A DNA stretch of 43,862 nt from Actinomycetes bacterium (GTDB lineage: Bacteria; Actinomycetota; Acidimicrobiia; Acidimicrobiales; RAAP-2). Below the pieces are notes generated by a model that saw nothing but the letters and a program-made list of their open reading frames with translations, ran no database searches and had not been told where the DNA came from. The stretch covers positions 1 to 43,862 of the forward strand of contig JAJZJT010000002.1 of assembly GCA_021809995.1 (NCBI GenBank), given 5' to 3'. The position numbers were made by a program, and so were the translations under genes. Of this stretch, positions 2,274 to 42,474 are shown one piece after another. Position 1 is the first letter of the stretch, and every line of letters begins with the position of its first letter.

Positions 2274-4538
2274 TCACTCGCGGGCAAGCTCGGCCTGCGC
2301 GGTCGCCTCGACGTCGGCGGCCGAACGTCGGCCGCGGACCTCGACCACCACGCGCTCGAGGGCGCCCGTGAAGGGGTTCGGCCCGTCGTAGTCGTCGACC
2401 ACCGTCGAGAGCGCGTCGCGTCCGAGGTCCATCCCAGTCGAGCCGAGCATCCGGACGACCGAAGGCAGCTCGACCGACGCGAGGTCCCGGCCGTCTGCCC
2501 CGATCGTCAGCGTGCCACCGGGCCCCGACCGGTCGAAGCGGGCTGTCAGCTGGTGGCGCCCGGGCCCGAGGTCGACCGGCGCCGAGGCGCGGTGGTGGGT
2601 GCCGAGGGCGTTGTAGTCGAAGTGCAGCACCCCGTCCTCTCCCACGAAGAACGAGTGCCCCACGTTGGCGCTGCCACGCGCGTAGAGCACACCGGTCGGC
2701 GACGCGTCGCCCGCCACCACCGCCGCGGTGATCGTCCACGAGCGGCCGCCGAGGGCGGGTGACGCGTCGCTCGGCACGTGGGAGATCGGCGGTCGGTACT
2801 CGTAGACGCTCCGGGCATGCGGGCTGGCCACCGGGGGTGCCATGGCGAAGAGCTCGATCGAGCGGTCGTCGAGCGGCAGGACGCCCATGGCGCCGGCCTC
2901 CGCCCACCACCGGTCGACGAGCTCGGCGAGCTTCGCCGGCGCGTCGGCCGAGCGGTCGTGGCACTCGGAGAAGTCGGCGTCGAGATGGTACAGCGCCCAC
3001 TCGTCGGCGTCGTAGGGCTGGCCAGGGCGGTGGTAGGTGGTTGCCTTCCACCCGTCCGCCCAGATCCCCCGGTGGCCCATCTGCTCGAAGTACTGCACCG
3101 AGCGAGGCGGCGGGGCCGCCGGGTCGGCGAAGGTCGGCACGAGCGAGCGACCGTGGAGGGGGAGCTGCGGGTGCCCGCCGAACGACTCGGGCACCGGCGC
3201 CCCCGTCACGTCGAGGATGGTGGCGGCGACGTCCACGGCGTGGCAGAACTGGCCCCGGAACGTCCCAGCCTGCGCCGCGTCGATGCCGGACGGCCAGTGG
3301 ACGATGAGCGGGTCGCGCACCCCGCCCCCGTAGGTGTCCTGCTTGTACCACTTGAGCGGGGTGTTGCCCGCCTGGGCCCACCCCCACGGATAGTTCGAGT
3401 GGGACCGGGGCCCGCCGATGTCGTCGAGCCGCGTAGCCGCGAGCTCGTCGACGTCCTCTGGGCGGCCGTTGAAGAAGCTGAACTCGTCCATCACCCCGAA
3501 GGGCCCGCCCTCCTGGCTGGCGCCGTTGTCCGAGACGACGAGGAAGAGGGTGCCGTCGAGCAGGTCCTCGGCAGCGAGGAAGGCGACGAGGCGCCCGATC
3601 TGCTCGTCGGTGTGCTCGAGCTGGGCGGCGAAGGCCTCCTGGAGGCGGCAGGAGAACGCCCGCTGGCTGTCGGTCAGCTCGTCCCAGGCGGGAACGCCGG
3701 GGTTCCTCGGGGCGAGCTCGGTTCCCTCGGGGACGACGCCGAGCTCGAGCTGGCGCTCGTACCAACGGCGGCGAAGCACCTCGTAGCCCTCGTCGAACCG
3801 GCCGCGCCAGCGACGGCGGTAGGCCTCGGGGGCTTGGTGGGGCGCATGGGTGGCGCCGAAGGCCAGGTAGAGGAAGAAGGGGCGGTCCGGCCGCACCGAG
3901 ACGAGGTCTCGCACCCACCCCATCGAGCGGTCCACGATGTCCTCGCTCACGTGGTACCCGTCCTCGGGACGCCCCGGCGGGTCGACGTGGTGGTTGTCGT
4001 GGGTGAGCTCGGGATGGAATTGGTCGGTCTCGCCCTGCAGGAAGCCGTAGTACCGGTCGAACCCCTTGCGGAGCGGCCAGTTGTCGTGCGGCCCGGCCGC
4101 GGACGTCTCGTGCATGGGAGCGAGGTGCCACTTTCCCGCGGCGAAGGTGGCGTACCCGTGCGCGGACAACAGCTGGGCCACCGTCGCGGCCCGCGGGGTG
4201 ATCCCACCGCGCATGTTCGGGTAGCCGCTGCTCCAGTTCGACACGCCGCGCATGCCCACGGTGTGGTGGTTGCGTCCCGTGAGCAAACAGGCTCGCGTGG
4301 GCGAGCAGAGGGCGGTCGTGTGGAAGCCGGTGTAGCGGAGCCCGCCCGCAGCCAGCGCGTCGAGATGGGGCGTGGCGAGGGTCGACCCGTAGCAGCCCAG
4401 GTGGGCGAAGCCGGTGTCGTCCAGCACCACGAGCACGACGTTGGGACCGCCCAGCCCGGCGGGAGGGTCGGGCCACCACGGGACCGACTCGTGGTGCGTG
4501 CGGCCGATGCGGCCGCCGAACCCCGGCTCCGACGTCAT
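2274..4538 (-). CDS. Arylsulfatase-type sulfatase (type I, formylglycine)
   Basis: A 754-residue type I sulfatase. It hydrolyses a sulfate ester, releasing sulfate and an alcohol or phenol. Metal-binding DD at residues 40-41 (VVLDDTG) is followed by C78-SPTR, the motif whose Cys becomes formylglycine, then GKWH 135-138 and SDNG 336-339. A C-terminal domain of about 200 residues (about 540-754) is beta-rich, as in long AtsA-like enzymes. ATG 4538 gives the family's usual N-terminus (GRIGRTHHESVPWWP); upstream in-frame ATGs at 4604 and 4631 add non-conserved sequence. No signal peptide is seen, so a cytoplasmic enzyme is likely. It is first in a leftward operon with DinB and MFS genes, divergent from another cluster with its own sulfatase. 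The formylglycine-generating enzyme it needs is not in this window. Confidence 0.9.
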   Translation of the reverse strand: MTSEPGFGGRIGRTHHESVPWWPDPPAGLGGPNVVLVVLDDTGFAHLGCYGSTLATPHLDALAAGGLRYTGFHTTALCSPTRACLLTGRNHHTVGMRGVSNWSSGYPNMRGGITPRAATVAQLLSAHGYATFAAGKWHLAPMHETSAAGPHDNWPLRKGFDRYYGFLQGETDQFHPELTHDNHHVDPPGRPEDGYHVSEDIVDRSMGWVRDLVSVRPDRPFFLYLAFGATHAPHQAPEAYRRRWRGRFDEGYEVLRRRWYERQLELGVVPEGTELAPRNPGVPAWDELTDSQRAFSCRLQEAFAAQLEHTDEQIGRLVAFLAAEDLLDGTLFLVVSDNGASQEGGPFGVMDEFSFFNGRPEDVDELAATRLDDIGGPRSHSNYPWGWAQAGNTPLKWYKQDTYGGGVRDPLIVHWPSGIDAAQAGTFRGQFCHAVDVAATILDVTGAPVPESFGGHPQLPLHGRSLVPTFADPAAPPPRSVQYFEQMGHRGIWADGWKATTYHRPGQPYDADEWALYHLDADFSECHDRSADAPAKLAELVDRWWAEAGAMGVLPLDDRSIELFAMAPPVASPHARSVYEYRPPISHVPSDASPALGGRSWTITAAVVAGDASPTGVLYARGSANVGHSFFVGEDGVLHFDYNALGTHHRASAPVDLGPGRHQLTARFDRSGPGGTLTIGADGRDLASVELPSVVRMLGSTGMDLGRDALSTVVDDYDGPNPFTGALERVVVEVRGRRSAADVEATAQAELARE

Positions 4539-4612
4539 GACCACGGCGCTCCCCTCCGAACGCCGCGCCCGCAGGGCACGGCGCGCTCGATCGACGGCCC
4601 CCATCGAATCAC

Positions 4613-7122: not shown

Positions 7123-7541
7123 TCCCCCGGCGCGGCTCCGTCCGCCGCCAGGTGCGCGTGGCGCGTCCGGCAGCCGAGGTGTGGGCGTTGGTCGGTGATC
7201 CCGCCCGTCTCGCCGAGTGGTTCCCCGGCGTCACGTCGGTGACGGTCGAGGGCGACCACCGGCGCGTGGCGACGGCAGCAGGCGTCACCTTCGACGAGGA
7301 CCTGCTCACCGTCGACCCGCTGGCGCGTCGCTTCCAGTACCGGGTGACCGGCGGACTCTTCCACGAGCACCTCGGCACGCTCGACGTGCTGGACCTCGGG
7401 GACGGCACGTGCCTGGTCGTCTACGCCACCGACGCCGACCCGGCGACGCTCGCCCTCGTCGTCGGCGGGGCGGCGGGAGCCGGGATCGAACGCGCACGCT
7501 GCATCCTCGAAGGTGCACGACCCGTGGGCTGGGGAGCCTGA
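7119..7541 (+). CDS. SRPBCC (polyketide cyclase/START-like) family protein
   Basis: A 140-residue SRPBCC-fold protein starting with GTG 7119, which overlaps the TetR stop (GTGA). The opening RRQVRVARPAAEVWALVGDPARLAEWFPGVTSV is the typical START/polyketide-cyclase N-terminus with the first strand and the tryptophan-rich helix. The protein is soluble with a hydrophobic cavity that in this family binds small or polycyclic molecules. It overlaps the downstream sulfatase by 1 bp. It may bind or help turn over the same ligand as the sulfatase; function is not determined by sequence. Confidence 0.85.
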   Translation: MIPRRGSVRRQVRVARPAAEVWALVGDPARLAEWFPGVTSVTVEGDHRRVATAAGVTFDEDLLTVDPLARRFQYRVTGGLFHEHLGTLDVLDLGDGTCLVVYATDADPATLALVVGGAAGAGIERARCILEGARPVGWGA

Positions 7542-9088
7542 TGGCACGCCGCAAGATCCTCTTCGTCACCACCGACCAGCAGCGCTACGACACCCTCGGG
7601 TGCAACGGCGGGACCCTCGCCCGCACACCAGTGGTCGACGGGCTCGCCGCGGCCGGCATCCGCTACGAGCGCGCCGTGCCCCAGTCGGTCGTGTGCATGC
7701 CGTCGCGCTCGACCATGCTGACGGGCCAGCACCCGACCACGCACGGGGTGTGGATGAACGGCGTGCCGCTCCCCTCCGACGCCCCCTCGGTCGCCGCCGT
7801 GCTCCGTGACGCGGGCTACCGCACCGCGCTGGTGGGCAAAGCCCACTTCGAGCCGTTCCTCGACCCGTTCCTGCGGTTCCCCGAGAACGCCCTCGCACGA
7901 TCCGGCACGGTGCCGGTAGGCGGCCCCCACCGAGGCTTCGACCACCTCGAGCTCGCCACCCACGGCCCGGTCGGCCCCCTTCACTACGCCCGCTGGCTGG
8001 CCTCCGAGCACCCCGACGCGATCAGCGGCTTCTACCGCGTCCTCGACGCGGCCATGCAAGTCAATGCCGAGGGCGGTGGCGACACCGGCGCCCCTCAGGT
8101 CGGGGTCAATCCCATCGAGCGCGGCCTCTACCACACCGACTGGGTCGCGGAGCGCACGATCGCCTGGCTCGACGGCCTCGCGGCAGACGACGACTGGTTC
8201 TGCTGGATGAGCTTCCCCGACCCCCACCACCCGTGGGACCCGCCCCAGTCCGAGGTGGGGCGCGTCGACTGGCGGGAGGTGCCCCTCCCCGCCGGCTACC
8301 CCGAGCAGGCATCCGAACGCGAGCGGATCCTCGACACCAAGCCCCGCCACTGGAGGCTGTGGTACGACGGCAAGCTCGTCTCCAACTACGAGGCGCCCGC
8401 CCAGTGGGTGCCTGCCACCCTCACGCCCGACCAGGTACGCGAGGTCAACGCCCGCAACGCCGTCGAGTGCGAGCTGATCGACGAGGCTCTCGGCCGGGTC
8501 CTGGCCCGCATCGCCGAACGGGGGTGGGCGGACGACGTCGACGTCGTCTTCACCAGCGACCACGGCGAGCTGCAAGGGGACTTCGGTCTTCTCTTCAAAG
8601 GCCCGTACCACGTCGACGCCCTGATGCGCCTCCCGCTCGTGTGGCGGCCCGCACCCTCCGCCGGCGTCGCGCCGGCCGTCGTGACCCGCCCGGTCGGGCT
8701 CGTCGACCTCGCCCCGACGTTTTGCGCAGTCGCCGGGCTCGAGCCCCCGCCCTTCCTCGAGGGCCGGCGCCTCCCTGTCCACGACGCGGACGCCACAGAC
8801 CGAGGCTTCGACCGGGTCCTCACCGAGTGGGACAGCGAGCTCTTCGGCACCGATGTCCACGTTCGGACGCTGACCCGCGACCGCTGGGTGGTCACGACGT
8901 ACCTGCCGGGAACCTGCCACGACGGCAGCGAGGGCGAGCTCTACGACCTCGTGGAGGACCCGCTGCAGCGGGTCAATCGCTTCGACGACCCGGCGCTGCG
9001 CTCGCTACGCGACGACCTCGTCGCCGACCTGCGAGACCACCTGCTTCGGCCCCGCGTCCCCCGCCTCGAGGTCGAGGCACCGGTATGA
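7541..9088 (+). CDS. Sulfatase (type I, DQ-type)
   Basis: A 515-residue sulfatase or alkaline-phosphatase-superfamily hydrolase. D12-Q13 (TTDQQRYDTLGC) is the metal pair, C52-MPSR the formylglycine motif, and TSDHGELQGDFGLLFKGPYH the distal metal and lysine segment. The DQ form and the WFCWMSFPDPHHPWDPP segment resemble choline-sulfatase and phosphonate-monoester-hydrolase-like members, and it is distinct from the 754-residue enzyme divergent to it. No signal peptide is visible. ATG 7541 overlaps the SRPBCC stop by 1 bp, and its stop overlaps the next gene by 4 bp. It hydrolyses a sulfate (or possibly phosphonate) ester; the substrate is unknown. Confidence 0.9.
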   Translation: MARRKILFVTTDQQRYDTLGCNGGTLARTPVVDGLAAAGIRYERAVPQSVVCMPSRSTMLTGQHPTTHGVWMNGVPLPSDAPSVAAVLRDAGYRTALVGKAHFEPFLDPFLRFPENALARSGTVPVGGPHRGFDHLELATHGPVGPLHYARWLASEHPDAISGFYRVLDAAMQVNAEGGGDTGAPQVGVNPIERGLYHTDWVAERTIAWLDGLAADDDWFCWMSFPDPHHPWDPPQSEVGRVDWREVPLPAGYPEQASERERILDTKPRHWRLWYDGKLVSNYEAPAQWVPATLTPDQVREVNARNAVECELIDEALGRVLARIAERGWADDVDVVFTSDHGELQGDFGLLFKGPYHVDALMRLPLVWRPAPSAGVAPAVVTRPVGLVDLAPTFCAVAGLEPPPFLEGRRLPVHDADATDRGFDRVLTEWDSELFGTDVHVRTLTRDRWVVTTYLPGTCHDGSEGELYDLVEDPLQRVNRFDDPALRSLRDDLVADLRDHLLRPRVPRLEVEAPV

Positions 9089-21817: not shown

Positions 21818-22026
21818 ACGGGCGCAGGCCACTCTATCGGAACTCGCCAGCACCGTCGCCAACGCCGGCACGGACCCAGGTGCACGTGGGGCGACCCGGC
21901 GCCGGCGAACGTGCCCGGGCTCCCACTCCGGGACCGTCTCCTCCGGGCCCTCGCTCCCCGACCGCCCCCGACCAGGACGTCACCGCCCGCGACCAGGACC
22001 GGACCGGCGGCACGGCTCGGGCGCCC

Positions 22027-22055
22027 TTGTGTTTTTCCTAGAGTCATTTACTCTA
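22027..22055 (+). promoter_or_regulatory. Promoter with palindromic operator before radical SAM operon
   Basis: TTGTGT (22027-22032), a 16-bp spacer and TACTCT (22049-22054) form a promoter in an AT-rich island. The palindrome TAGAGTcatttACTCTA (22039-22055) covers the -10. The expected transcript start falls at about 22061, next to GTG 22062, so the first gene may be leaderless. A repressor bound to the palindrome would block the promoter; the regulator is not known. Confidence 0.6.
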
Positions 22056-22061
22056 CGTAGT

Positions 22062-23195
22062 GTGACAAACTATTCCGAGTCGCAGTCCGGACGCAGAGTG
22101 GGCCCTCCGGTGCACGACGTAGGGCCACCGGACTTCGCGAGCGCGCCCATGACGCTCGCCTGGGAGCTGACCCGGGCCTGCCCCCTGCGGTGCGTTCACT
22201 GCCGGGCCGAGGCCCAACCCCGCCGGCACCCCGCCGAGCTCACCACGGACGAGGGTCGCGCCCTCCTCGACGACGCCGCCGCCATGGGGACCAAGGTCGT
22301 CGTGCTGACGGGCGGCGACCCGCTCGCCCGACCCGACGTCTTCGACCTCCTCGCCCACGCCTCCGGCACCGGCGTCCACGTCGGCTTCTCCCCGTCGGTC
22401 ACCGGCCGGCTGCGCTCGGGTGCCTTGGCTCGGGCTGTCGAAGCAGGGGCCGGCACCTTGCACCTGAGCCTCGATGGGGCCACCCCGGCGACCCACGACG
22501 GGTTCCGCGGCGTCCCGGGCCACTTCCTCCGCACGCTCGACGCCATCCGCACCGCGGCCTCGCTGGACGTCGGCCTCCAGGTCGGGACCACCGTGTCGCG
22601 CCGTACTGTCGCCGAGCTGCCGGCGATGGTCGAGCTGCTCGACGGCCTGGTCTCCACCTGGACGCTGTTCTTCCTCGTCCCCACCGGGCGGGCGCTGGCG
22701 GACGACCTCGTCGAGCCCGAGGTCGAAGAGAGCGTGCTCGAATGGCTCGCCGCCTCCGAGTTCCCTTTCCGGGTCCGCACCGTCGAAGCCCCCCAGCTCC
22801 GGCGGGTCCTCGCCCAGCAGGGGCACCGCGTCGCGCCGGGCGTGACCGACGGCAACGGGTTCTGTTTCGTCTCCCACGTCGGTGACGTCCAGCCCTCGGG
22901 CTTCCTGCCGCTCACCGTGGGCAATGTCCGCGAGCGACCGGTGTCGTGGTGGTACCGCGAGGCACCGCTCTTCCTCGACCTCCGCGACCAGGCGCGCCGC
23001 GACGGCGCGTGCGGGCGGTGCCCGTTCCTCGGCATCTGCGGCGGCAGCCGTGCCCGGGCGTGGGCCGCAACCGGTGACCCACTGGCCGGGGACCCCTCGT
23101 GCGCCTTCGGGAAGGCACTTGCCACCGCCACGGCGTGGAGAGCCACCAGCACGGCGGTGCCGGCCGACGCCGTGGCCGCCTCGGGGCCCGGGTGA
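22062..23195 (+). CDS. Radical SAM/SPASM-type protein
   Basis: 377 residues from GTG 22062. C40-PLRC-VHC (CxxxCxxC: C40, C44, C47) binds the S-adenosylmethionine iron-sulfur cluster, and LTGGDPLARPDVFDL is the GGxP-like SAM motif. The C-terminal segment FCFVSHVGDVQPSGFLPLTVGNVRE with C-x2-C-x5-C (GACGRCPFLGICGG) binds further clusters, as in SPASM proteins related to heme d1/AhbD and the TIGR04053 group. GTG 22110 is an alternative start; 22062 fits a leaderless transcript. The stop overlaps an acyl-CoA dehydrogenase start (GTGA). The product is unknown; a peptide or tetrapyrrole-like substrate is possible, but no precursor peptide is adjacent. Confidence 0.85.
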   Translation: MTNYSESQSGRRVGPPVHDVGPPDFASAPMTLAWELTRACPLRCVHCRAEAQPRRHPAELTTDEGRALLDDAAAMGTKVVVLTGGDPLARPDVFDLLAHASGTGVHVGFSPSVTGRLRSGALARAVEAGAGTLHLSLDGATPATHDGFRGVPGHFLRTLDAIRTAASLDVGLQVGTTVSRRTVAELPAMVELLDGLVSTWTLFFLVPTGRALADDLVEPEVEESVLEWLAASEFPFRVRTVEAPQLRRVLAQQGHRVAPGVTDGNGFCFVSHVGDVQPSGFLPLTVGNVRERPVSWWYREAPLFLDLRDQARRDGACGRCPFLGICGGSRARAWAATGDPLAGDPSCAFGKALATATAWRATSTAVPADAVAASGPG

Positions 23196-24502
23196 CGCTG
23201 GCGCCGGCCTTCGACCTCTCCGAGCTCTCCGACGAGGAGCAGCTCGCCCGCCGCGAGGCCCACCGAGTGGCCGAGGAGGTCCTGCGCCCGGCCGCCCAAG
23301 CCCTCGACGCCATGAGCCCGTCCGAGCGCGTGGCCTCCGGCTCGCCGTTCTTCGCCGCCATGGCCACCCTCAAGTCCCTTGGCTATCACCGGCTCTTCGT
23401 CTCCGCGGACAGCGCCGGCAGGGAGGACCCCGCCGCCTGGCGCGTCCGCTCCCTCGTGGTCGAGGAGCTCGGTTGGGGAAGCCTGGGTCTCGCCACGGCT
23501 TTCCTCGTCGACATGCTCCCCTTCGTGTCCGTGGCCCGCTTCGGCACCGACGAGCTGCGCGCCGAGCTCCTGCAACCTTGGCTGGAGGACGAAGTCGCCT
23601 CGTGGCACGGGTGCTGGGCCATCACCGAACCCGACCACGGCAGCGACTACCTGGGCCTGCGCGACGACGACCCGGGCTCCTTCGGCCGGTCCGGACTGCT
23701 CGCCACGCGGAGCGAGGGGGGCTGGGTGCTCCGGGGGCAGAAGTCGGCGTGGGTCAGCTCGGCCCCGGTGGCCACCCACGCCGCCGTCCACGCCCAGGTG
23801 GCCTCCGAGCGCGACCTGCACCACAGCCTCTTCGCCGTCGTCCCTCTCGACGACCCGGGCGTCCGCCGCGGTCCGCCCGTCGCCATGCTCGGTGTGCGGG
23901 ACGACCCTCAGGGCGAGCTCTTCTTCGACGAGGTCTTCGTGCCCGACCACCGCGTCCTCGTGCCGCCGGGGCCCCTCTACCCCGTCTTCGGCGACCAGCT
24001 CCTGTGCATGACCAGCTCGATCATCGCCCTCGCCGCCGTCGGCGTGGCCCGGGCCGCCTTCGAGGAGGCCCTGGCGTACGCCAGGAGCCGGGTGCAGGGC
24101 GGGCGCGTCATCGCCTCGCACAAGAACATCCAGCTGACGTTGTACGGGATGTTCGAGCGGGTCGAGACCGCCCGCGCCTACGCCCGGGCCGTGCTCGCCC
24201 ACACGTTCCGGAACGTGCTCGGCGCCGGCTCGTCGGGCACGGGTGCGTCCCCGCGGCACACGCGCACCTCGCAGGTCTACTGCAAGCGGGTCGCCTTCGA
24301 GGTCGCCCACGACGCCGTGCAGGTCTGCGGGGCCTCCGGGCTGGTGCAGGGCACCCTCGTCGAGCGGCTCTTCCGCGACGCCCGGAGCCTTCTCATCGAG
24401 GACGGCACCGTGGAGGTGCTCGGCCTCGACGCGGCGCGCGACCTCGTCGGCAACTACGAGCACGACCACTACGACGTCGAGGAGATGATGCAGCGATGGT
24501 GA
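23192..24502 (+). CDS. Acyl-CoA dehydrogenase-family protein
   Basis: 436 residues from GTG 23192. It has the three-domain acyl-CoA dehydrogenase layout: helical N-terminus, a middle beta domain with HGCWAITEPDHGSDYLGLR (the A-x-TEP-x-x-GSD flavin/substrate motif), and a C-terminal helical domain with VQVCGASGLVQGTLVERLFRDARSLLIEDGTVEVL. The last segment aligns with the YEGT catalytic-base region, with an inserted Asp. FAD-dependent oxidation of an acyl thioester is expected. Its overlaps with the radical SAM gene and with an acetoacetate-decarboxylase-like gene (7 bp) suggest a dedicated three-step pathway rather than general beta-oxidation. Confidence 0.88.
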   Translation: MTLAPAFDLSELSDEEQLARREAHRVAEEVLRPAAQALDAMSPSERVASGSPFFAAMATLKSLGYHRLFVSADSAGREDPAAWRVRSLVVEELGWGSLGLATAFLVDMLPFVSVARFGTDELRAELLQPWLEDEVASWHGCWAITEPDHGSDYLGLRDDDPGSFGRSGLLATRSEGGWVLRGQKSAWVSSAPVATHAAVHAQVASERDLHHSLFAVVPLDDPGVRRGPPVAMLGVRDDPQGELFFDEVFVPDHRVLVPPGPLYPVFGDQLLCMTSSIIALAAVGVARAAFEEALAYARSRVQGGRVIASHKNIQLTLYGMFERVETARAYARAVLAHTFRNVLGAGSSGTGASPRHTRTSQVYCKRVAFEVAHDAVQVCGASGLVQGTLVERLFRDARSLLIEDGTVEVLGLDAARDLVGNYEHDHYDVEEMMQRW

Positions 24503-25305
24503 CCGACACCCCACCCCAGGCACCCCCGGCCGTCGGCGTCCACGTGACCTCCATGCCGCTCGACGCACCCCTGTACCGCCTCGACCCCGAGCGGGGGGCC
24601 GAGTACTGGGGCTGCCGGGGCCTCATGTCCGTCTTCACCGTCGACGGCGACGTCTCCGACCTCGTCCCCGACGGGCTCGCCCTCGACGAGCCCGCCATCG
24701 GCGCCGTGCTGGTCGCCGAGTACGGAGCCAGCACGCTCGGCCCCTACGGCGAGTTCGTCTCGATGCTCCGGGTCGTCGACGACCAGGGCACCTCCGGGCT
24801 CTACATCCCCTACATCTACGTGACCAATGACGCCGCCCTCACCGCCGGACGCGAGGTGCTCGGCGCCCCGAAGAAGCTCGCCAGCGTCACGGTCACCGCC
24901 GCCCAGGAGCTCGTCGTGGGAAGCCTCGAGCGGCCGGCGGGCCAGCCGCTCGCCACCGTCACCCTCGCTCCCAGCCAACGGCTCGGCGACGAGGTCCTCG
25001 ACGCCTTCCTGCCGGGGGGGACGCCGTGCTTCTCGCACCGGGTCGTCCCCGGCCCTCCCGGGGCCACCATCGTCGACGAGCTCGTGCGCTGGCACGTCGA
25101 CCTGGCCGTCCGCACCGACGCCTTCGGGGACGGGCTGCGCTTCACGGGACCCGGGGGGCTCGCCTACCCCACGAGCTCCGCCGTGGACCCGGTCGGCCGG
25201 CTCGCAGTCGGCACCCCGATCGCCACCGCCTACCTCGAGTTCGACATGCGGCTGCGGGCGGGCGGGGTGGTCTGGTCGCGGACGGTCGCACCGGGCAGGG
25301 ACTGA
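24496..25305 (+). CDS. Acetoacetate decarboxylase-family protein
   Basis: 269 residues from ATG 24496, overlapping the dehydrogenase by 7 bp. The ADC-fold signature GREVLGAPKKLASVTV places K126/K127 as the Schiff-base and modulating lysines; upstream EYGASTLGPYGEFV and IPYIYVTNDAA are also family-typical. ADC-like enzymes decarboxylate beta-keto acids or catalyse aldol/dehydration chemistry through a Schiff base. As the last gene of the operon it could act on a beta-keto product of the dehydrogenase. No thioesterase or CoA ligase is adjacent. Confidence 0.85.
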   Translation: MVTDTPPQAPPAVGVHVTSMPLDAPLYRLDPERGAEYWGCRGLMSVFTVDGDVSDLVPDGLALDEPAIGAVLVAEYGASTLGPYGEFVSMLRVVDDQGTSGLYIPYIYVTNDAALTAGREVLGAPKKLASVTVTAAQELVVGSLERPAGQPLATVTLAPSQRLGDEVLDAFLPGGTPCFSHRVVPGPPGATIVDELVRWHVDLAVRTDAFGDGLRFTGPGGLAYPTSSAVDPVGRLAVGTPIATAYLEFDMRLRAGGVVWSRTVAPGRD

Positions 25306-25403
25306 CCGGTTGGGAACCCCCGACGGTCGCGGCACCACGCCGGGCCCGGCGGGTACCGCAGCCACCGCGGACCCGTTCGGCCCGCCAGGGTGCCGGGGCC
25401 GCT

Positions 25404-25431
25404 GGTGACTGGTGACTGGTCACCGGTCACC
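25404..25431. terminator. Inverted GGTGAC/GTCACC repeats between convergent genes
   Basis: GGTGACTGGTGAC and GTCACCGGTCACC pair at 12 of 13 positions with a 2-nt loop. A third GTCACC follows and reaches into the ydcF stop codon. It is a likely bidirectional terminator without a T-tract. Confidence 0.5.
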
Positions 25432-25433
25432 GG

Positions 25434-31414: not shown

Positions 31415-31500
31415 CGCGTCCCCGTCGCCGCTACCCTGGGTGCTGCCCTGGGGCGCGCCGCGCCCGCCGGGGCTGTCCCCGCGTGGACGAGGAGCGGCCG

Positions 31501-33087
31501 ATGGCACGAGACGGGGAGGACCGCGGCGGCGGGACCGCCGGGGCGCGCCGACCCGGCGGCGCGGGAGCCTCGCTGCAGCCCAACATCCTCCTCGTCGTCT
31601 CCGACCAGGAGCGGGCGTGGGAGTGGCTGCCCGACGGGGTCGAGCTGCCCTGGCGAGCGCGACTGCGGGCGGAGGGCCTGACGTTCGCCAACCACCACAC
31701 GCACTCGTCGCCGTGCTCGCCGAGCCGGGCGAGCCTCGTGACCGGCCGCTACCTGACGGGCCACGGCGTCCTCGACAACGTCATCATGCCCGAGCACCAC
31801 GAGCTGGAGCCGACGATCCCCACCCTCGGTTCGCTGCTCGCCGGGGCCGGGTACCGCTCGTCGTACATCGGCAAGTGGCACCTCTCCCAGTCGGCCACCC
31901 CCGACCTCGCCTCCTACGGCTTCGCCGACTGGGAGGGCAACGACCGCCACTTCATGGGGTGGGCCGGCACCGGCGTGCACTTCGACCCCCGCATCGCGGC
32001 GAACGCCGCCCACTGGCTCCGCACGAACGCCCGGCGGGGGGCTGGCGACCGGGGTGACGGCGCACAGCCGTGGTTCCTCACCGTCGCGCTCGTCAACCCA
32101 CACGACGTCATGTGGTTCCCCATCGACCAGCCCGGCTACGCCGAGGCCCACCCCGAGGAGGTCGCGGGCGTCCGCCGGCTCCTCGAGGCCGCCGCGTGGA
32201 AGGACGACGACCCGCTCCCCGTCTTCGCCGAGCGGTACCCCGAGGTGGTCGACCAGCTCCCCCCCAACTTCGACGACGACCTCCACACCAAGCCCGAGGC
32301 CCACAGGCAGTGGCGTTACGACCAGCAGCACGGCCTGTGGGGCTACCTCGACCCCCGGGACGCGCGCTCGTGGCTCCGCCACCTCGACTACTACGCCCAC
32401 CTCCACACGCTGGCCGACGAGAGCCTCGGGACCGTGCTCCAGGCCCTCGTCGAGGCCGGGGCGTGGGACGACACCGTCGTGATCTTCACGTCCGACCACG
32501 GCGACATGTGCGGCTCGCACGGCCTGCGCTCGAAGGGGCCCTTCGTCTACGACGAGATCATGCGGGTCCCGCTCGTCGTTCGCGTCCCCGGGCTGACCCA
32601 GCCGGGATCGGTGACCACGTCCCTCTCCTCCCACGTCGACCTGACCGCCACGGTGTGCGCCATCGCCGGCGTGGACCCGGCGAGCACCGCGTCCACCGTG
32701 CAGGGCACCGACCTCAGCCCCGTGCTCGCCGACCCGTCGGCCTCCGTCGTCGAGCACGTCCTCTTCGCCCAGGACTCGGCTCAGACCGAAGGGCTCAACA
32801 CCGTCCGCTACGCGCTGCGGGGCTTCACCGACGGACGCACGAAGTACGCCCGCTACTACGGCGTCGGCGGCGGCCTCCCCTCGACCGGGCTGTGGGGGCG
32901 GGACCCCGGGCGCAAGCGCTTCGACGTCGACTGCGACTTCGACGACAACGACCACGAGCTCTACGACCTCGGAGACGACCCTCACGAGCTCGTCAACCTG
33001 GCCAACGAACGGTCGAGGCGGCGCGCCGTCCGCGACGCCTACGAGCGCCTGCTGGCCTACGAGGCCGAGTCGTTCGTCACCTGGTGA
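31501..33087 (+). CDS. Sulfatase (type I), divergent from Ltp operon
   Basis: A 528-residue sulfatase. D35-Q36 (VVSDQERAWEW) is the metal pair and C72-SPSR in SSPCSPSRASLVTGRY the formylglycine motif. IGKWHLS follows, and TSDHGDMCGSHGLRSKGPFVYDEIMRVPLVV holds the distal metal and lysine residues. ATG 31501 is preceded by GAGGAG. It lacks a signal peptide. It is unlike the other two sulfatases in the window (754 and 515 residues). Ten bp downstream an FAD oxidoreductase begins. Its divergent neighbours are Ltp/DUF35 genes, so a sulfated steroid or similar polycycle is an attractive but unproven substrate. Confidence 0.9.
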   Translation: MARDGEDRGGGTAGARRPGGAGASLQPNILLVVSDQERAWEWLPDGVELPWRARLRAEGLTFANHHTHSSPCSPSRASLVTGRYLTGHGVLDNVIMPEHHELEPTIPTLGSLLAGAGYRSSYIGKWHLSQSATPDLASYGFADWEGNDRHFMGWAGTGVHFDPRIAANAAHWLRTNARRGAGDRGDGAQPWFLTVALVNPHDVMWFPIDQPGYAEAHPEEVAGVRRLLEAAAWKDDDPLPVFAERYPEVVDQLPPNFDDDLHTKPEAHRQWRYDQQHGLWGYLDPRDARSWLRHLDYYAHLHTLADESLGTVLQALVEAGAWDDTVVIFTSDHGDMCGSHGLRSKGPFVYDEIMRVPLVVRVPGLTQPGSVTTSLSSHVDLTATVCAIAGVDPASTASTVQGTDLSPVLADPSASVVEHVLFAQDSAQTEGLNTVRYALRGFTDGRTKYARYYGVGGGLPSTGLWGRDPGRKRFDVDCDFDDNDHELYDLGDDPHELVNLANERSRRRAVRDAYERLLAYEAESFVTW

Positions 33088-41580: not shown

Positions 41581-42474
41581 TCACCCCTCGGCGCGGAGCG
41601 CCTCCAACGGGGGGGTGAAGTAGTAGGCGCTCCGCACCGGCGCCGAGAAACGCGTCAGCCGGTCGCGAGGGCCGCCGTCGGCCCCGGCCATGCGGGCGAG
41701 CATCAGGTCGAGGCGGCGTTGGTCGGCGCTGAAACCGACGAACTGCAGGCCGTGCTCCGACAGCGACCCGAACGGCGTGGACCGGCGGAAGATCTCGAGC
41801 TCCCCTCCCTCCTCTTCGACGACCACGCGCGAGATGTGAGCGTCGTCGGGCCGGTCGTCCTCGTCCAGCTCGGTGCTGTCCGGCTTGGTCCGTCCGATGA
41901 CCGCCTCCTGCTGGGCCACGGTGAGCCGCTCGAAGGCGGCGAGGTCGTGGACCCACCGCTGCACGACGACCACGCTGCCTCCCGCCCCGGGCCGACCGTC
42001 GGGGATGGTGGCCTCGGTGACCGCCTCGTGGACCGAGGGGTTCTCGGTACCGTCGACGAACCCGGTCAGGTCACGGCTGTCGCGGTACGCGAAGCCATGC
42101 TGCTCGTAGGCGACGTCGCAGACGCTGTCCAGACCGGCAGCGACGGTCCGGGCATGGTCGAAGACGACGTCTTCGCCGCTGCCGGCGAGCCACGCCCAGA
42201 CGTCGCACTGGGTGGCCGGCACCGTGAAGCCGTCGGGTCCGACGACGGGCTGGAACGCCGTCATTCCATCGGGGACCTCGCCGCCCGCAGCCGCCCACGT
42301 CCGCGCCCCGAAGCCCACGACCAGGTCCACCCCGCTCGTCGTCGCCCGCTCGCGCGCGAACGACCGCACGGCGTCCACGAGGGCGGCGGGGGTGACGCCC
42401 TCCCGCAACGTGGCCTCGAGGTGCCAATGTGCCGAGGCACCGAGGGCGAAGATGCCAGGTTGGGGGTGCGCCAT
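41581..42474 (-). CDS. Dyp-type heme peroxidase
   Basis: 297 residues from ATG 42474 with GGAGG upstream. GFVDGTENP (139-146) is the Dyp GxxDG motif with catalytic Asp141. H213 (DDAHISRVVV) is the proximal heme ligand, and LEIFRRSTPFG carries the distal arginine. QRWVHDLAAFERLTVAQQEAVIGRTKPDS is typical of class B (YfeX-like) enzymes. No Tat signal is present, so it is cytoplasmic. The C-terminus (PPLEALRAEG) lacks an obvious encapsulin-targeting tail and no encapsulin gene is nearby. It reduces hydrogen peroxide while oxidising dyes, lignin-type phenols or porphyrinogens. Confidence 0.95.
   Translation of the reverse strand: MAHPQPGIFALGASAHWHLEATLREGVTPAALVDAVRSFARERATTSGVDLVVGFGARTWAAAGGEVPDGMTAFQPVVGPDGFTVPATQCDVWAWLAGSGEDVVFDHARTVAAGLDSVCDVAYEQHGFAYRDSRDLTGFVDGTENPSVHEAVTEATIPDGRPGAGGSVVVVQRWVHDLAAFERLTVAQQEAVIGRTKPDSTELDEDDRPDDAHISRVVVEEEGGELEIFRRSTPFGSLSEHGLQFVGFSADQRRLDLMLARMAGADGGPRDRLTRFSAPVRSAYYFTPPLEALRAEG

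Follow-up and report, generated by a model that had tools for sequence, protein, structure and literature searches.

An acidimicrobial operon appears to join a haem-type radical SAM gene to a conserved acyl-CoA dehydrogenase/decarboxylase-fold gene pair

The stretch of DNA analyzed here (the window, 43,862 nucleotides of contig JAJZJT010000002.1) comes from an Actinomycetes bacterium whose draft genome (G000) comprises 2.89 Mb, is 93% complete and has Acidimicrobiaceae/Acidimicrobiales and further actinobacterial metagenome-assembled genomes (MAGs) as closest named relatives. Three adjacent genes on its forward strand encode a radical S-adenosylmethionine (SAM) protein (rSAM), an acyl-CoA dehydrogenase (ACAD) and an acetoacetate-decarboxylase-fold enzyme (ADC). 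The original prediction, made from the letters alone, had described three coupled genes with overlaps of 4 and 7 bp, and translation of the window bore this out: the rSAM stop codon (23193-23195) runs into the GTG start of the ACAD gene at 23192, and the ADC gene starts (ATG 24496) ahead of the ACAD stop (24500-24502). The predicted enzyme families were likewise confirmed for all three genes by Pfam (PF04055, ACAD domains, PF06314). The features of the locus are as follows.

22025..22066, forward strand: promoter/operator block upstream of the rSAM gene; on alignment the sister species shares 41 of its 42 bases
22110..23195, forward strand: radical SAM protein of the TIGR04053/AhbD/NirJ class, 361 aa from GTG 22110 (PF04055, TIGR04053 and AhbD profiles, alignment)
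22179..22202, forward strand: CX3CX2C motif (CPLRCVHC) for the SAM-cleaving [4Fe-4S] cluster, from the sequence and conserved in the clade
23010..23102, forward strand: CX2CX5CX20C auxiliary cluster motif, from the sequence, its four Cys invariant in 23 relatives
23192..24502, forward strand: acyl-CoA dehydrogenase of the 'ED' subfamily, 436 aa (Pfam ACAD domains, predicted fold, subfamily alignment)
24398..24403, forward strand: Glu403-Asp404, catalytic-base motif of the ACAD, aligned to solved ACADs and invariant in bacterial and archaeal subfamily members
24496..25305, forward strand: acetoacetate-decarboxylase-fold enzyme, 269 aa (PF06314, predicted model)
24871..24876, forward strand: Lys126-Lys127, Schiff-base lysine pair of the ADC, PKK motif aligned with solved ADCs

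The true start of rSAM is probably GTG 22110 or the alternative ATG 22149, close to where protein conservation begins, and position 22027, where the operon had been said to start, therefore belongs to the promoter and not to a gene. A start at GTG 22029 was rejected, since protein conservation sets in only near ATG 22149 and the block around it is conserved as DNA. Both flanks of this 42-bp block diverge between the window and the sister species of the same genus (G001). The single base that differs within it breaks a 17-bp palindrome, TAGAGT-N5-ACTCTA (22039-22055), which was for this reason rejected as the operator; what is conserved is an overlapping, nearly palindromic element, ACTCTACGTAGTGT (22050-22063). 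The exact ACTCTACGTAGTGT pattern occurs once in each of five genomes (G000, G001, G017, G294 and G429), a count that is partly circular because the pattern was derived in part from these very sites. With one mismatch allowed, genome-wide searches gave no enrichment above a reversed-pattern control in most genomes, and exact sites alone were therefore used. Related TACGTA-type elements were also seen upstream of rSAM in four further genera (G020; G017; G023/G067; G294/G313/G429). In G017, where rSAM and ctaA are divergent, the element falls within the short stretch that separates them, and in G020 such elements occur both before rSAM and between an Rrf2 regulator gene and an Fe-S operon. The motif near ADC homologues at two loci (L226, L231) is only suggestive.

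Synteny with the sister species extends to both sides of the locus at ~80-87% nucleotide identity. Two tRNA genes lie just upstream of the operon on the opposite strand, and the order tRNAs and promoter, rSAM, DUF218-like gene, gltX is shared. The rSAM of the sister species is 91% identical and stands in the same tRNA/gltX setting, with no ACAD-ADC pair behind it and no ADC detectable in its genome; window positions 23160-25432 have no counterpart there. In an otherwise syntenic locus this means that the pair was either gained in G000 or lost in G001. A 19-bp match, the only candidate for a remnant of the pair in G001, was taken as chance and rejected. One explanation is that the pair is an itinerant cassette, functionally unconnected with rSAM, that happened to land behind an expressed gene in a single species. 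The variable neighbours of the pair among acidimicrobial genera are in line with this, as is the finding that the two sister genomes differ by several other nearby segments, for example thiolase/ChsH2 genes at 27.9-33.1 kb. The tight 4-bp coupling of rSAM and ACAD argues against it, as do the adjacencies in g41 and g97 and, as described below, the excess in co-occurrence, and we regard a chance landing as quite unlikely.

The rSAM protein matches PF04055 with 65 bits, and its best profile is TIGR04053, where 388.1 bits leave it borderline, just under the equivalog cut-off of 395; three relatives from its clade pass that cut-off with 395.2, 397.5 and 397.0 bits. Its scores against the AhbD haem b synthase profile (TIGR04545, 267.7 bits, cut-off 500) and the mycofactocin maturase MftC (TIGR03962, 129.5 bits, cut-off 265) stay well below threshold, and NirJ2 gave 184 bits. 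A literature search on TIGR04053 returned nothing. The protein combines the CX3CX2C and CX2CX5CX20C motifs expected of an AhbD-type enzyme, and the latter corresponds to the CX2CX5CX20-21C motif published for NirJ (PMC10548856), so the label 'SPASM-type' given to it earlier is a fair one. A SPASM-kind peptide maturase, mycofactocin- or sactipeptide-like, with ACAD and ADC tailoring a ribosomal peptide, would be in keeping with the profile matches to MftC, PqqE and sactipeptide maturases; these matches fall far short of their cut-offs and well below the TIGR04053 and AhbD scores, and no recurrent precursor-like gene was noticed beside the relatives, where ORFs <60 aa were not searched. This explanation is highly improbable.

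The neighbours of related genes point to haem. The genes of these relatives were called with a home-made codon scorer, key calls being verified by Pfam, NCBIfam or tblastn, and as most of the genomes are fragmented MAGs, absent neighbours are weak evidence. Fourteen loci of the rSAM clade were compared; those of G017, G023, G067, G102 and G146 have ctaA as a neighbour, in three orientations. The hemY gene adjoins the relative in G023 and G067 and, in G103 and G209, abuts an rSAM of the broader family. Co-localisation of ahbD with hemY, hemH and hemQ has been reported (PMC10548856). HemQ was found in 28/28 genomes tested, and a role of rSAM as strict HemQ replacement was consequently rejected. 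The protein would instead provide a second, oxygen-independent route, like the ChdC/AhbD couple of Haloferax, where both enzymes are kept and AhbD serves anaerobic growth (PMC5746218).

A regulator of the Rrf2 type is also associated with these genes. Its gene adjoins rSAM in G020, and in the sample of 397 genomes of the order, on which all co-occurrence statistics are based, an Rrf2 homologue is present in 8/8 rSAM genomes vs 79/397 overall (p 2e-6); it was also found in all checked rSAM genomes of the window's family. In rSAM genomes the Rrf2 gene commonly diverges from genes for a membrane Fe-S protein together with an Fe-S flavoprotein, which could supply electrons. We infer that Rrf2 is the regulator of the operon; a search of the literature for Rrf2 in Acidimicrobiia found nothing. 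Given the family class of rSAM and the placement of its relatives beside hemY, ctaA and Rrf2, we favour an oxygen-independent haem role, of the coprohaem decarboxylase kind. As a separate observation, an Rrf2 gene that diverges from genes for a membrane 4Fe-4S protein and for an Fe-S flavoprotein forms a recurring acidimicrobial module (L107:2022-7595, L284, L288, L291, L296-L298), and the shared intergenic region carries WACGTCAAGT-like sequences.

The more interesting part of the operon is the pair behind rSAM. ACAD and ADC genes are adjacent in nearly all of ~50 loci from two domains of life, in both gene orders: in Acidimicrobiia (52-69% identity), Archaeoglobi, Ignisphaera, Nezhaarchaeota, Dehalococcoidia, Hadesarchaea, Bathyarchaeota, Vulcanisaeta and Halorutilus. 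In the order sample, ADC homologues occur in 37/397 and ED-type ACADs in 32/397 genomes, 28 being shared where 3 are expected (p ~6e-31), and the distance matrices computed for ACAD and ADC are correlated (r 0.73). An SCP2-like protein is encoded beside the pair at 17 loci in archaea and Chloroflexi, a 3-hydroxyacyl-CoA dehydrogenase is found nearby in Archaeoglobi, and in two Dehalococcoidia the gene after the pair is etfB, neighbours that speak for a setting of acyl-CoA oxidation. The two genes form a deeply conserved, ancient unit common to archaea and bacteria. Literature searches on ACAD plus ADC, in an operon or with SCP2, found nothing, and the reaction of the pair seems to be undescribed. 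In several Archaeoglobi (L042, L045, L051, L036) two tandem ADC-family genes stand behind the ED-type ACAD, with the 3-hydroxyacyl-CoA dehydrogenase nearby.

The ADC belongs to the superfamily by its PF06314 score (146.7 bits, cut-off 29.8), and lies outside acetoacetate decarboxylase proper as defined by NF002614 (57.4 bits, cut-off 150). The Schiff-base lysine and its neighbouring lysine are both in place: among 46 relatives K126 is invariant, as is E86, and K127 is conserved in ≥90%. Among solved structures the predicted model (pLDDT 90) is closest to 3bgt, with Z 29.7 and an rmsd of 2.0 over 230 residues; in a VIA-align structure comparison of the model, chains outside the ADC superfamily all stayed below Z 8.

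For the ACAD, Pfam scores of 81/57/54/35 bits cover the N-terminal, middle and C-terminal domains, and the predicted model (pLDDT 90) has the ACAD fold and matches SCAD and MCAD structures; among NCBIfam profiles no equivalog was reached. The family's catalytic motif IYEGT, whose Glu is not universal among ACADs, here reads IEDGT, so that Asp404 replaces the base Glu and Glu403 replaces the Tyr. A second archaeal ACAD group, likewise paired with this ADC, retains IYEGT. The ACAD beside rSAM in G008 reads LADGPDEVH, which we take to be ACAD11-like. Asp as catalytic base has been documented in ACAD10/11 (PMC12440821). The active-site residues and the predicted structures do not fix the substrate of either enzyme. 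Two further ED-type ACADs are recorded here as observations in their own right. A second one in G000 (L229:2819-9809, contig C6) heads an operon with an AMP-ligase, a thiolase and a nitroreductase; this operon is conserved (also L228, L230, L231 and L237), and a CofD-like gene (F420 biosynthesis family) usually diverges from it. In Actinobacteria bacterium UBA5176 (L025:109-1917) a single frame of 603 aa, lying ahead of the ADC gene, carries a MerR-type DNA-binding domain fused N-terminally to the ED-type ACAD.

Whether rSAM and the pair belong to one pathway depends on how often they meet. A failure of the three genes to co-occur in other genomes had been named as what would refute the prediction, and the outcome is divided: ACAD and ADC occur together, as neighbours, almost everywhere, and the exact rSAM-ACAD-ADC trio is found only in G000 among the genomes and loci examined. 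A looser link is seen in other genera. An ADC homologue lies directly upstream of rSAM, with ctaA downstream, in G146 (L138); an ED-type ACAD is divergent from rSAM in G056 and G132 (L112, L139); and in G104 (L219) ADC, ED-type ACAD and a more distant TIGR04053 rSAM fall within 5 kb. Adjacency of rSAM to ADC or ED-type ACAD genes thus occurs in 3 genera, that of G000 included, against ~0.01 expected by a rough estimate of chance (13 ADC/ED-ACAD units, one to three per genome, 2 flanking slots and ~3000 genes). By tests that ignore relatedness and were devised after the data were seen, ADC homologues are present in 5/8 rSAM genomes vs 0.75 expected (p 2.5e-4), and the overlap of rSAM with ED-type ACADs is 4 genomes vs 0.64 expected (p 2e-3). 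These findings favour a single dedicated pathway, in which rSAM would carry out a radical step, the ED-type ACAD a dehydrogenation and the ADC a C-C cleavage on one haem-derived or lipid-like molecule, the gene orders being rearranged elsewhere. This account, and with it the originally predicted specific pathway, has to face ~40 pair loci from archaea, Chloroflexi and Acidimicrobiia without such an rSAM in the flanks searched, the rSAM of G001 standing without pair or detectable ADC, and G017 and G023, which carry both, unlinked. We consider it possible, if rather doubtful. The prediction of a modified acyl or cofactor-like molecule holds in part, as rSAM points to haem and the pair to acyl-CoA oxidation.

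The reading we prefer, and to which we give an even chance, sees the operon as two modules joined behind a single promoter, that of rSAM. In the first, the AhbD-like rSAM would most likely decarboxylate haem propionates in a reaction that needs neither oxygen nor peroxide, either the conversion of coprohaem to haem b or a haem step close to it. It would be the low-oxygen companion of the genome's HemQ, its expression probably being tied to an Rrf2-type Fe-S regulator at the palindromic element. In the second, the ED-type ACAD would oxidise an acyl-CoA by means of its Asp base and pass the electrons to electron-transfer flavoprotein (ETF), and its ADC-fold partner would decarboxylate, or cleave in a retro-aldol manner, a keto acid derived from the ACAD's substrate through its Lys Schiff base. 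As the stop and start codons overlap, rSAM and the pair are probably co-transcribed and translationally coupled, which would place the second module under the same control as rSAM. Several points weigh against this junction of two modules. In the window itself no haem-synthesis gene adjoins rSAM, and with scores below both the AhbD (268 vs 500) and TIGR04053 (388 vs 395) cut-offs its substrate could differ. ADC homologues include decarboxylases, aldolase-dehydratases and cyclases, so that the reaction cannot be read off the fold. Finally, the recurrent adjacency of rSAM to ADC and ED-type ACAD genes elsewhere is left unexplained by two independent modules. A bolder proposal, unlikely in our view, is that ED-type ACAD and ADC form an undescribed two-enzyme catabolic step of archaea and bacteria, which Acidimicrobiia have combined in several arrangements with an Rrf2-controlled haem-type rSAM, in one pathway acting on a haem- or lipid-derived acid.

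Other parts of the window are noted in passing. The segment 27949-33070, absent from the syntenic G001, encodes a thiolase (PF22691), a second thiolase-like protein without Pfam match, two OB-fold proteins of the ChsH2 type and a sulfatase; the gene set is reminiscent of steroid/lipid side-chain degradation. Three sulfatase-like genes are present in the window; that at 31483-33087 has a Pfam sulfatase domain, and those at 2274-4544 and 7541-9088 were judged from N-terminal sequence alone. A Dyp-type (haem) peroxidase gene is found at 41581-42474 on the minus strand.

The analysis turns a vaguely defined operon into two testable units. The pair is conserved from Archaeoglobus and Vulcanisaeta to Acidimicrobiia, and its dehydrogenase can be told by a diagnostic change in the active site, so a single assay would annotate many genomes. 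If the haem role holds, an AhbD-like enzyme in HemQ-owning actinobacteria would mean that the two-route haem strategy of Haloferax also exists in bacteria with the coproporphyrin pathway.

Compared with known systems, the window rSAM is closest to the TIGR04053 family of radical SAM/SPASM proteins, just under whose cut-off it falls; its clade differs by an extra Cys in GFCFVSH and by lacking an insert found in several other acidimicrobial members. With AhbD, the oxygen-independent coprohaem decarboxylase of, for example, Haloferax, it has full-length similarity and the same type of Cys motifs in common, and the likeness extends to relatives beside hemY and to coexistence with HemQ; it differs in its profile score, far below 500 bits, and in that relatives also adjoin ctaA and ADC/ED-ACAD genes. 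The window ACAD has the fold of short-chain ACADs (1jqi, 2vig; TM ~0.80 by query, 0.91-0.93 by target) and the same domain architecture, but differs from them by its invariant Glu-Asp and an identity of only ~25%. With ACAD10, ACAD11 and LvaC it shares the Asp base, a likeness that need not mean membership of that subfamily; its motif is IEDGT and it has no kinase partner. The ADC in turn resembles acetoacetate decarboxylase (3bgt/3bh3, 3c8w), its best structural match, in the Lys-Lys pair and the conserved Glu, but is 25% identical, linked to an ACAD, and belongs to a subfamily that does not conserve the Arg found near the barrel's start. Swit_4259, the aldolase-dehydratase of S. bingchenggensis (4zbt, 6eej) and MppR are members of the same superfamily (Z 24-26) that are structurally farther from the window ADC than the annotated decarboxylases and stand in a different genomic setting.

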